Part shown: positions 1-23,031 of the stretch, in pieces
Numbering within the stretch: the stretch's first letter is position 1
Layout: each line of letters begins with the position of its first letter
Notes under the pieces: generated by a model
Seen by the model: only the letters and a program-made list of their open reading frames with translations
Told to the model about the DNA's origin: nothing
Database searches by the model: none
DNA from: Candidatus Scalindua sp.
Lineage (GTDB): Bacteria > Planctomycetota > Brocadiia > Brocadiales > Scalinduaceae
Assembly: GCA_021776915.1 (NCBI GenBank)
Contig: JAIQZU010000059.1
Location: 1 to 40,644, forward strand
Reading direction: 5' to 3'
Length of the DNA stretch: 40,644 nt
Translations under genes and position numbers: made by a program

Positions 1-185
1 AGACAAAAACCCAACGACTTTTTTCGCCACTATGGAGTGCATTGACCGTGTCAATGCTGTCACATGCCACAGGCAGATTTATTGAGGTAGACATCGTCAC
101 GGACGATGTACTCCAAAACTTATTAGCTTGGCAACATTGAATTTCCTATGCATCAAGTTAAGCCGCTATCGCGACAAAAACAATC

Positions 186-248
186 CTTCGACTCCGCCAA
201 AGCTCAGCTTAGCTGTGTCAGGACGACGTCTTCTGAGCGAAGTCGAAG
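186..248. repeat. Imperfect inverted repeat, dispersed-repeat type
   Basis: CTTCGACT at 186-193 is the exact reverse complement of AGTCGAAG at 241-248, and the inner bases GCTCAG and CTGAGC also pair, so the whole 63 bp can fold into a long interrupted hairpin. Elements with CTTCGACTCCGCTCAG ends are common intergenic repeats in many bacterial genomes. That it is a member of such a dispersed family here is inference, since only one copy lies in the window. Confidence 0.6.
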
Positions 249-255
249 TGTAACA

Positions 256-273
256 GCAACCCTGAAGGGTTGC
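256..273. repeat. Short perfect hairpin
   Basis: GCAACCCT (256-263) and AGGGTTGC (266-273) form a perfect 8-bp stem around GA. No T-run follows on either strand, so it is not a canonical terminator. It sits directly beside the larger palindrome and may belong to the same repeat. Confidence 0.5.
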
Positions 274-396
274 CCTACGATCTAAACTTTGAATTTCCTC
301 ATATGGTAATATATTAACTTAATTCAATCTTGTAAATCCTGTTTCCTGTGCATCGGGAGGAACTCCAGAAATACAGGTAATCTCCAATCGTAAAGA

Positions 397-777
397 CTAT
401 TTTTTAATCACAAAGAAAGTTAGCGCCATAAGCTGAAAAATAATAGCAAGGAGTAAAGCAGAATGCACATCTCCACTTTTATTAGTATAAGCAAATACTA
501 ATGCACCAAAAACAAAACACTGCGCCACGGCACCAACGATATTCAGCCATGAACCTGACTCATACGTCAGCACTCTTGCAATATTCTTGACTTCTCTCAG
601 AATCGACTCAAAGAGGAACTGTAATTCATCCGCCCCACCCTTTTCTTTCTTCTTACTAAAGGCATCTGAACACTCCTGACAAATTAATTGCCCATAACGC
701 TCTGTAGTTAACCCTGCTTCTAAATCCTTATGGGGAATACTTTTTTTACACCTGCCACATAATCTAATTTCGGCCAT
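397..777 (-). CDS. Small zinc-ribbon membrane protein of unknown function
   Basis: The 126-residue product starts with two CxxC pairs (CGRC at residues 7-10 and CQEC near 33-36), the pattern of a small zinc ribbon. A charged, probably helical stretch follows (about 45-70), then two hydrophobic segments at about 79-97 and 106-123 that look like a membrane hairpin, with a basic tail. I do not recognise a named family. It begins 11 bases after the stop of the sigma-54 activator gene, so it is probably the last gene of that two-component operon. A role as membrane partner for the soluble kinase is possible but only inferred from position. Confidence 0.7.
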   Translation of the reverse strand: MAEIRLCGRCKKSIPHKDLEAGLTTERYGQLICQECSDAFSKKKEKGGADELQFLFESILREVKNIARVLTYESGSWLNIVGAVAQCFVFGALVFAYTNKSGDVHSALLLAIIFQLMALTFFVIKK

Positions 778-18296: not shown

Positions 18297-19598
18297 TTAA
18301 TTCAAAACACCAACCAGATTGTCATGCCTTTCCTTAATCTTGTCAACCAGACCATCATCTATTTTTGTACTTCCTAGCTTAGCATCTGGTTTTCGGTCAC
18401 CATGACAGTCCGAACCACCGGTAATTACAAGATCGTATTTCTTTGCTAATCGCTTATATCTTTTTACGGCTTCCGGCATATGTGCTGGACAATAAACCTC
18501 TATCCCCTGCAGGCCGTACTCAACCATCTTGGGAATCAACGTATCTCTCTTAGTAATACCAGGGTGTGAAAGGACAGGAACACCGCCTGATGACAGGATA
18601 AGCTCGATAGCATCTTTTAACGTCAACGCTACTTTAGGCACATGAGCAGGGCCATTATCAGCAAGATACTTTTGAAAACTTTCCCTAATATCACTGCAAT
18701 AGCCTTTTCTACACAATACGTCAGCAACATGCATACGTCCTGGAGACCCCTTCTCAGCAACATCAAAAACTTCCTGATGCTCTATATTTACACCCATATT
18801 CCGAAGTTTCCCGGCTATCTTTTTGATTCGCTCAATTCTTTCAAAATGCACCTCAGCTAATTTCTCTAAAAGCATACTATTCTTTATATCTATAAAGTAA
18901 CCCAAGAGGTGAATATCTACAGGAGGATAATAAGAAGATAGTTCTATTGCGGGAATAATATTTACCCCCTTCTTATCACCAATGTTCTGGGCAATTTCGA
19001 CAGCGTCTACACTATCATGGTCGGTTATTGCGATTGTACGGAGGTTGAGTTTAGATGCCTCTTCAACCACTTCTTCCGGTGACATGGTTCCATCTGAAAA
19101 CTTCGTATGAATATGTAAGTCAGCGCCCGCCCGTTCTTCCACGGCGTAGTTATTGCTGATATTTGTAGTGATTTCCTGAACCCTTTCATTATTCTTTATA
19201 TATGTTGAATATATCTTATCCAACACCCCATTTACAAATAAGCCGGATTTTTCAGTACTGTATTTCTTAGCTAAATCAATCGCCTCGTTGATGGAAACCT
19301 TTGGGGGGATATCATCCATATAAAACAGCTCATAACATGCCAACCTTAAGACATTTCTGTCTACAACCGGCATCCTGTGCAAGTCCCAATGTTCAGATAA
19401 CTGAGTTATCTTTTGGTCTATCACTTTCATTTTCTGGATACACCCTTTAGCTAATATCGCAGCAAAATCACTTATTGCAACATCCTTACCTTGTTCCCGG
19501 CAAAAAGTATCTATCTCATCTAAAACTTCATTGCCACGAATCTCCAATTGATAAAGAACCTGTAATACGATCTCACGGGAATGCGTTCTTTTTCGCAT
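18297..19598 (-). CDS. nusB: NusB fused to a PHP-domain RNase AM/TrpH-like phosphoesterase
   Basis: Residues 1-135 are a complete NusB: basic start RKRTHSREIVLQVLYQLE, the core VVDRNVLRLACYELFYM and the end INEAIDLAKKYSTEKSGLFVNGVLDKI. After a linker of about 20 residues, 159-433 form a PHP domain with metal motifs DLHIHTKFSDG (160-170), TDHDS (192-196), IELSSYYP, SHPG and GGSDCHG. NusB with NusE/S10 binds boxA for rRNA antitermination; PHP proteins of the TrpH/YciV type include RNase AM, a 5'-to-3' exoribonuclease that trims rRNA 5' ends. One chain thus may join rRNA transcription and maturation (inference). I see no frameshift or internal stop, so it is a true fusion in this sequence. The gene lies downstream of ribH, the usual ribH-nusB order. 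Confidence 0.93.
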   Translation of the reverse strand: MRKRTHSREIVLQVLYQLEIRGNEVLDEIDTFCREQGKDVAISDFAAILAKGCIQKMKVIDQKITQLSEHWDLHRMPVVDRNVLRLACYELFYMDDIPPKVSINEAIDLAKKYSTEKSGLFVNGVLDKIYSTYIKNNERVQEITTNISNNYAVEERAGADLHIHTKFSDGTMSPEEVVEEASKLNLRTIAITDHDSVDAVEIAQNIGDKKGVNIIPAIELSSYYPPVDIHLLGYFIDIKNSMLLEKLAEVHFERIERIKKIAGKLRNMGVNIEHQEVFDVAEKGSPGRMHVADVLCRKGYCSDIRESFQKYLADNGPAHVPKVALTLKDAIELILSSGGVPVLSHPGITKRDTLIPKMVEYGLQGIEVYCPAHMPEAVKRYKRLAKKYDLVITGGSDCHGDRKPDAKLGSTKIDDGLVDKIKERHDNLVGVLN

Positions 19599-20676: not shown

Positions 20677-22020
20677 ATGGAAGAAAATAAAGAGATTAAC
20701 GAAAAAAGATTACCCATAAGCGAACATCTTGAAGAGCTGCGATCAAGGATTATAAACTCAATCATCGTAGTTGTTGTACTATTCTTTATCAGTTGGTTCT
20801 TTAAGTCAAGAATTCTTGATATTATAAAAAAGCCTCATAGCATTACCATGGAAAGCCTTGGGCTGCCTCAATCGCTTCAGGTGCTGAGTTATCAGGAAGG
20901 TTTTTATGCTTATATAAAGCTGTGCTTAATGGCCGCCGTTTTTCTGGCATACCCTGTAATCTTATATCAAATCTGGAAATTTGTGGAAGCCGGTTTATAT
21001 AAGAAAGAGCGTAGATACGTGAAGATCTTCGCCCCCGTCTCATTCATTGCATTCATAATAGGAGTATTATTCGGATATTTTTTCTTAATACCCTTTGGCC
21101 TTCAATTTCTGATAAAGATACTGGGGGGGGGGATACAGCCTATTATTACAATGAGCCAGTATATCTCGCTTGTAACTATGCTGACACTCGCACTCGGCAT
21201 TGTTTTCCAGCTTCCACTTATAATGTTATTTATCTCCAGGATTGGAATGCTTAAGGCAGAAGATTTTATTAAATGGCGAATGTATGCAATCCTTATTATA
21301 TTTATTCTTGCCGCAGTAATAACACCACCGGACCCGTTTACACAGATTATGACGGCTTTACCTATGATCATCCTTTATGAAATAGGAATTCTCACAATAA
21401 GACCCACGAAGAAAGCAGTCACACAATTCAGCCTTTTATTAGGTTCCGGTATATTACTGATATATATTGCTTTTTTGATATTTACACTTCCAACAAAAGC
21501 GGATTTCTTAAATTCAACCGGTGTTGTCAATATACTCCCGGACTCAGGCACAAATTGGCAACCTTTATCATCCGAATCTAAGATTCACAATGGAGCCGCA
21601 CTAAAGACAGATAACGACAGTAAAGCCTCCTTTCTCCTGAAAGACGGCACTTATGTCATAATGGATGTTAATACTGAAATCAAGTTTGTTAAGAACAGAA
21701 AACTCGACCTGCTAAATGGACAAATACTCCTCTCTATAAAGGCAGACGAAAAACCATTTATGATAGCCGCCAACAATAACATCATAACTTTAAACGACGG
21801 CAACGTTGACATAAAAATATCAAGACACATAGTCTTTGTTACGGTAACAAAGGGCGAGGCGATAGTTGTTTCAAACGGTGAAGAGAAGAAAGTGTTTGAA
21901 GGAAGGCGATTAAGGGTTGTAACCGGAGGCAATCCAACAAATGTGGATAGCGTTATAAGATGGGCTAAGGAGATGCGAAAGAAATTAAAAGAACAGAACA
22001 AGCGGACTTTAAGCCTGTAG
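20677..22020 (+). CDS. tatC: Twin-arginine translocase TatC with extra helix and FecR-like C-terminal domain
   Basis: Residues 1-245 are a full TatC: ISEHLEELRSRI at the N-terminus, the loop YQEGFYAYIK, YPVILYQIWKFVEAGLYKKERR and TPPDPFTQ with LYEIG, and six membrane helices. Instead of ending there, the protein has a seventh hydrophobic helix (about 252-271) and about 175 more residues. Residues 285-415 show FecR-like beta-rich features (SKIHNGAALKT, ASFLLKDGT, LLNGQILLSI, VTKGEAIVV). With N-in topology the extra helix would put this domain in the periplasm. I chose ATG 20677; a TTG at 20665 is in frame but less likely. The usual TatC length is about 250; this is 447. A 10-G run lies in codons 149-152. 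TatA/TatB are not in the window. Confidence 0.92.
   Translation: MEENKEINEKRLPISEHLEELRSRIINSIIVVVVLFFISWFFKSRILDIIKKPHSITMESLGLPQSLQVLSYQEGFYAYIKLCLMAAVFLAYPVILYQIWKFVEAGLYKKERRYVKIFAPVSFIAFIIGVLFGYFFLIPFGLQFLIKILGGGIQPIITMSQYISLVTMLTLALGIVFQLPLIMLFISRIGMLKAEDFIKWRMYAILIIFILAAVITPPDPFTQIMTALPMIILYEIGILTIRPTKKAVTQFSLLLGSGILLIYIAFLIFTLPTKADFLNSTGVVNILPDSGTNWQPLSSESKIHNGAALKTDNDSKASFLLKDGTYVIMDVNTEIKFVKNRKLDLLNGQILLSIKADEKPFMIAANNNIITLNDGNVDIKISRHIVFVTVTKGEAIVVSNGEEKKVFEGRRLRVVTGGNPTNVDSVIRWAKEMRKKLKEQNKRTLSL
21123..21132 (+). repeat. Ten-G homopolymer inside tatC
   Basis: Ten consecutive Gs lie in the coding region, read as the end of a leucine codon plus three glycine codons (residues 150-152). 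In this copy the frame is intact. Tracts of this length slip during replication and also cause sequencing errors. Confidence 0.95.
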
Positions 22021-22131: not shown

Positions 22132-23031
22132 ATGGATACTTTTTTTAAATTACTTCTCCTGATTGGCATAATCTTAGGATTCGTTTGTATAATCGGTGGA
22201 TTATATCTTTTATTTAAACGGGGATGGCAAAGTAAAACTGAAGTTAAAATCAAATTTTTTGGAACCCTTAAGACTACCGAAACCGGATTGGCTTTGATTT
22301 TCTTTGGATTAGTGCTTTTCACCTTTTCGAGTAGTGGCTTTATGCAATTGAGAGACAAGCAGCGAATTGTGTCGCAGTCAAACATTTCAGATTCCGTGCT
22401 CTCACTTCTCCTGACCCCGTCTCTTATGAAGGAAAAAGATTTCCAGAACTCCGTGAAGGCACTGCCTAAAAACGAGAAGGATGCAATTATTACAAAAGCT
22501 GCCAGGGCTACGTGGAATGAGTTTCATAAAGTTACAGACGTCAAAAACAAGGATTTCGTACCCAGGGATTTTGATAATGTCGATGCAATCACGACATTTT
22601 TGACAGAGTTAGATCAGAAAAATGGTCATGCTTTGTACTATAAGGGAGAAGTTATGAGACTGCTTAAAGATCGAGGCCGATTTCGGGAAAATTTCTTGCG
22701 GTATCTTGATATCGAAGCATCGATTGGGACTAGTCTCCCGGTCGGAATAGAAGCGGAGGTATGCTATAGATCTGCAGAAGGATATTGCAGGCAGAGAACA
22801 GGATGGATTCTTCACCTATTGGCAAACGATTTCTATCAAGAGGGGATTCAAGAGAACGATAGAAATAAGAAGCGAGAACTATTTGAAAGAGCATTGAAAA
22901 AGGCAAAAAAGGTTTGGAAGCATTTTCCGCCTGGATTCCTTTCGGGTAAAACCACTAAGTCTACACAAGACTTACAGGCGACACTCCAAAATGAATTAGC
23001 TGCTTTGGGTTATCAAAGCAAGAAACAATGA
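22132..23031 (+). CDS. Uncharacterised membrane protein with two N-terminal helices
   Basis: The 299-residue product has two hydrophobic helices at about 5-29 and 50-70. A mostly helical soluble region of about 220 residues follows, rich in charged residues, with weak TPR-like helix pairs (for example NGHALYYKGEVMRLLKDRGRFRENFLRYLDIE). I recognise no family or catalytic motif. GGGGGCA lies just before the ATG at 22132. The gene follows tatC by 111 bases on the same strand, and no clear terminator separates them, so co-transcription is possible. It does not resemble TatA or TatB. Confidence 0.7.
   Translation: MDTFFKLLLLIGIILGFVCIIGGLYLLFKRGWQSKTEVKIKFFGTLKTTETGLALIFFGLVLFTFSSSGFMQLRDKQRIVSQSNISDSVLSLLLTPSLMKEKDFQNSVKALPKNEKDAIITKAARATWNEFHKVTDVKNKDFVPRDFDNVDAITTFLTELDQKNGHALYYKGEVMRLLKDRGRFRENFLRYLDIEASIGTSLPVGIEAEVCYRSAEGYCRQRTGWILHLLANDFYQEGIQENDRNKKRELFERALKKAKKVWKHFPPGFLSGKTTKSTQDLQATLQNELAALGYQSKKQ

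Follow-up and report, generated by a model that had tools for sequence, protein, structure and literature searches.

The closest described counterpart of the protein analysed here is kustc0286 of Kuenenia stuttgartiensis, in which TatC is followed by a C-terminal FecR domain (PF04773) that three topology predictors place outside the cytoplasm (Medema et al. 2010, PMC2881027). Kuenenia carries a single TatC gene, with FtsY nearby by locus number (kustc0279), and its Tat system is predicted to be anammoxosomal. Medema and colleagues called the fusion absent from all other TatCs then known, tied it to the anammoxosome and suggested a part in sorting to that organelle (PMC2881027). Extra parts of a different kind are described for TatC of Myxococcus xanthus (9e03), where an insert in a periplasmic loop of the (TatBC)3 core forms a homotrimer that adds TatC-TatC contacts, and for Nitratifractor salsuginis, whose insert is disordered and unrelated to it (PMC13323110). 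FecR-type regions are in turn represented by PupR of Pseudomonas capeferrum (6ovk), which has a cytoplasmic anti-sigma domain, a CJM subdomain at residues 110-238 and a C-terminal STN subdomain at 250-324 (PMC7186176).

The window, that is, the whole stretch of 40,644 nucleotides of Candidatus Scalindua DNA that was analysed, encodes a protein which looks like the ortholog of kustc0286 in a Scalindua-type genome (Table 1). As in Kuenenia, it is the sole TatC of the genome (3.79 Mb searched) and ftsY lies nearby. The original prediction had taken the fusion to be unreported; the 2010 paper on Kuenenia (PMC2881027) had already described it, so that it is known in kind. Measured against the open-licence literature, beyond which later reports may exist, what is new is its wider range, its apparent single origin, a fold reduced to the CJM half, evidence against a strict anammox link, and the occurrence in other planctomycetes of another C-terminal TatC tail, unrelated to this one.

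Partners of the TatA/B family are present as two TatA-like genes, one on contig C14 and one on C63, so the tatA genes, whose position had been marked for checking, lie elsewhere in the genome; beside these two no clear TatB was seen in it. On the strand opposite tatC lie ribH, a nusB-PHP fusion and ftsY, and downstream of tatC follow an open reading frame of its own strand, a phosphatase-like frame, rplQ and rpoA. For ribH, the phosphatase-like frame, rplQ and rpoA, the name is presumed from reading the sequence. NusB-PHP-like sequence adjoins tatC in most Brocadiales loci searched. The frame directly after tatC was considered as an operon partner and rejected, since it has no tblastn match in the other loci searched; nor does it match any Pfam family at E 0.01. 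No sigma-factor gene was found among the neighbours of tatC, and no partner gene adjoining tatC is conserved across the loci of the class.

Table 1. Coordinates of the features discussed. Positions without a prefix are those of the window; prefixed positions belong to the named contig or locus.
Feature	Position	Residues	Strand	Basis or remark
NusB and PHP-domain part fused in one frame	18297-19598		-	Pfam
tatC-fecR gene	20677-22020	447 aa	+	ATG start, uninterrupted ORF
TatC core, six helices	20722-21363	16-229	+	PF00902, E 1.8e-66
Positively charged stretch in cytoplasmic turn between helices 6 and 7 (...RPTKK...)	21388-21432	238-252	+	overlaps start of helix 7
Seventh transmembrane helix	21409-21486	245-270	+	AlphaFold2
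All-beta FecR-type domain, predicted non-cytoplasmic	21499-21921	275-415	+	PF04773, tail model
C-terminal helix with invariant W429	21943-22014	423-446	+	AlphaFold2, conservation
ORF after tatC	22132-23031	299 residues	+	
TatA-like genes	G000:C63:48627-48773 and G000:C14:114192-114332			distant from tatC
Tailed TatCs of families f14/f36	L065:865-2211, L067:877-2202, L068:853-2202			
Tailed TatCs of families f14/f36	L083:3625-4950, L084:3626-4984, L085:3582-4955, L086:4221-5594			

Structurally, the N-terminal part is an ordinary and complete TatC, as had been predicted. It scores 224.3 bits against PF00902 (Pfam cut-off 25.1) and passes the NCBIfam TatC equivalog TIGR00945 (192.6 versus 132.7). 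Its six-helix core adopts the solved TatC fold in Foldseek comparisons (4b4a, E 3.5e-11, target TM 0.90), with further matches to the TatC structures 9e07 (E 5.2e-12) and 9dzz. The accompanying statement that known TatCs stop near residue 250 was too general, as the large periplasmic inserts of the M. xanthus and N. salsuginis proteins (PMC13323110) and the many longer planctomycete TatCs contradict it. The seventh helix is borne out both by hydropathy, which gives seven helices with the last at 253-271, and by the AlphaFold2 model of the full protein, built from a 33-sequence alignment (mean pLDDT 82.8). Across 33 homologues the mean net charge is +2.6 before this helix versus -0.2 after it, a bias that, by the positive-inside rule, places the beta domain across the membrane from the cytoplasm. 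Helix 7 would thus run from in to out, with the FecR domain on the periplasmic or anammoxosome-lumen side; the outward orientation first proposed from the sequence agrees with this topology inference and with the confident model.

The tail itself is FecR-like by family model, by fold and by profile. PF04773 matches residues 309-394 (E 2.3e-7, 31.6 bits against a gathering cut-off of 24), the tail searched on its own reaches E 4.6e-8, and 27 of the 33 fusion homologues give a FecR match at E 0.01. Modelled alone, the tail is predicted with a pLDDT of 94.6 and a pTM of 0.79. Its beta domain superimposes on residues 111-231 of PupR, the twisted beta-solenoid-like CJM fold (Z 16.0, 113 residues, rmsd 1.6), and on the anti-sigma-like BDI_1681 (4m0n, Z 15.5), the next unrelated structure following at Z 7.5; at the sequence level, a profile of the tails retrieves the same structures (6ovk, E 3.8e-8). 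The structural alignment is confined to the CJM half. Pfam gives no STN match, and the beta domain ends at about residue 415, followed by a single helix; in PupR the STN comes after the CJM, and the tail stops short of where an STN would begin. An anti-sigma domain is likewise without a Pfam match, only a short turn lying between helices 6 and 7. Compared to PupR, therefore, the window protein has neither the anti-sigma domain nor the STN, TatC standing in place of the former. Profile matches and predicted structure show the beta domain to correspond to the membrane-proximal (CJM) half of the PupR periplasmic part, minus the rest of the FecR regulator. Like the M. xanthus protein, this TatC would have an additional folded domain facing the periplasm, here judged from topology inference and a model; in contrast to the homotrimeric loop insert, its domain is C-terminal, follows helix 7 and has a FecR fold.

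We surveyed 75 genomes of the class, comprising 62 Brocadiales, nine of family f9, two of f6 and one each of f7 and f8. The tail is present in 65 of them, namely 56 of the 62 Brocadiales, where a search for the same architecture had been advised, and nine others (f7 1/1, f8 1/1, f9 7/9, f6 0/2). A TatC match is found in 58 Brocadiales genomes, all of which but G008 and G011 also match the tail; in these two the TatC is cut by a contig end, and in G024 the tail lies on a different contig. All seven f9 genomes with a TatC carry the tail, and the f6 TatCs are short and untailed. Brocadiales and f9 tails align over 194 columns (hhalign 99.6%, E 1.6e-23) and are, on this profile comparison, homologous along their length. 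Leaving aside frames that run into a contig edge, the only short ones in Brocadiales are those of G029 (L007) and G039 (L029), which break shortly after the core and continue the FecR part in another frame, either through an assembly error or through a real frameshift. No separate downstream fecR gene was seen in the relatives, these two short frames being frameshifts; the stop after residue 245 with a separate gene, named beforehand as the mark of an artefact, was not seen. A frame or assembly artefact is rejected, as the same fusion recurs in all 65 genomes. Elsewhere in the phylum, none of the next-best tail matches read (from about 1e-21, in seven genomes outside the class) is a TatC, and the TatCs from outside Planctomycetota recovered in a scan of genome contigs are untailed. 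TatA/B-family matches number one in most tailed relatives searched and two, in tandem, in the untailed f6 genomes.

On a midpoint-rooted tree of the first 250 TatC residues, with the tail left out, all 35 tailed TatCs form one clade (98/97) and the untailed f6 sequence, a long branch, falls outside it; the f9 and f8 TatCs lie outside Brocadiales. The tailed TatCs thus apparently have a single origin, and two histories fit: the tail was gained once after f6 split off, or was gained earlier and lost in f6. In 12 pairs dN/dS is 0.09-0.28 for the tail and 0.04-0.21 for the core, which shows, from codon comparison, purifying selection on the tail. Among the best non-TatC relatives of the tail in the phylum are zf-HC2-TM-FecR proteins (e.g. 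L124, L126, L129 and L130), and the match to L126 includes the helix; these proteins differ in having a zf-HC2 zinc finger where TatC stands, and extra C-terminal parts. Since they are among the best relatives, such a protein may plausibly have donated its TM-FecR piece, and we infer that a TM-FecR segment like theirs joined tatC once.

We tentatively favour the reading that the domain acts on the Tat core from the far side of the membrane and would stabilise or shape it. The window protein is the only TatC of its genome and would carry its accessory domain permanently on that side. Because the core complex contains TatC as a trimer, its three FecR domains would come together there around the same axis. 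They could stabilise or shape the core in the way that the trimeric periplasmic insert adds TatC-TatC contacts in M. xanthus, and they might also touch emerging cargo. Several observations count against this reading. In M. xanthus the insert lies within a loop rather than at the C-terminal end. The tail changes at about twice the rate of the core, and its few invariant residues, mainly glycines and one tryptophan, point, as far as conservation can tell, to upkeep of the fold and name no binding site. To our knowledge, moreover, the roles described for FecR domains are in signalling, not in assembly.

A rather unlikely alternative, though the best placed of the rivals, is far-side docking, whereby the FecR domain would bind a maturation factor, a chaperone, or a cell-wall or cargo domain and recruit it to the exit site of Tat. 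In PupR, the CJM half belongs to a protein-binding surface (PMC7186176), and the domain is kept wherever it can be judged, both of which would suit a docking platform; against it, neither half of PupR binds its partner alone (PMC7186176), the conserved residues look structural, and tatC is adjoined by no conserved partner gene across the class.

Sorting to the anammoxosome, as suggested by Medema et al., would have the domain help bring Tat, or the proteins it carries, to the anammox organelle. The tail occurs in every assessable Brocadiales genome, and the predicted anammoxosomal location of the Kuenenia Tat system (PMC2881027) agrees with such a role. The same tail is, however, found in f8 and in seven f9 genomes, both outside Brocadiales on the core tree. 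The family model of hydrazine synthase alpha (PF18582) finds a match in 40 of the 62 Brocadiales genomes and in none of the nine f9 genomes, which are 67-96% complete, so that a single absence would be weak evidence and nine of nine is not. A whole-protein search with Brocadiales HzsA likewise returned nothing in f9, versus 64-100% identity in Brocadiales controls; our calling f9 non-anammox goes by this one marker, hydrazine synthase alpha. The f7 and f8 genomes (G064 and G065) contain only distant HZS_alpha-domain proteins, the best at 34% identity over the main stretch. These proteins constitute an expanded family, with 11 matches in G064 and 16 in G065, mostly in frames well over 850 residues compared to about 820 for HzsA. 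The range of the fusion, which reaches relatives without hydrazine synthase, sets it apart from the Kuenenia report and weakens the sorting idea: we consider that explanation improbable, and the tail probably does not serve to fill the anammox organelle. Anammox bacteria may nevertheless have co-opted it later.

The original prediction also raised a tie between Tat and FecR-type sigma signalling, in which the domain would sense a far-side signal and control an anti-sigma or sigma factor. The homology of the FecR domain speaks for it, as does the fact that the nearest non-TatC homologues in the phylum, the zf-HC2-TM-FecR proteins, resemble anti-sigma factors. The protein nevertheless has no anti-sigma domain and no STN subdomain, no sigma gene adjoins tatC, and PupR needs both subdomains for partner binding (PMC7186176); this possibility was accordingly not borne out and is very improbable. 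An artefact or a functionless tail, for which only the two frameshifted assemblies G029 and G039 could be cited, is hardly credible and already refuted, given a tail kept over most of the class with dN/dS well below 1.

Returning to the favoured role in stabilising or shaping the Tat core, a fuller scenario, which is possible at best and less secure than that role itself, would be that a FecR-type sensor module, freed from sigma signalling, was taken up once in the ancestor of most Brocadiia, and that three copies of it cap or gate the Tat core. Anammox bacteria would have inherited this arrangement and may use it on the organelle membrane.

C-terminal additions to TatC are not confined to this class. 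Families f14 and f36 carry a second extension, whose bearers form one clade on the core tree (99/95). Hydropathy gives a seventh helix in f14 only and not in f36, and the two members scanned have no Pfam match in the tail. These tails were considered as FecR relatives and rejected (hhalign 0.4%). The TatC of f13 (L082:1463-2794) has a different tail again, in which nothing beyond a weak HEAT-repeat match was seen.

Since 2010 the TatC-FecR protein has been a candidate device for sorting proteins to the anammox organelle. Now that it is also found in relatives lacking hydrazine synthase, the explanation moves away from organelle sorting and towards a property that the Tat core of this lineage has in general. 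As planctomycete TatCs have gained a C-terminal extra part at least twice, once a FecR domain and once the unrelated f14/f36 domain, the outer face of Tat in these bacteria merits a structural look.
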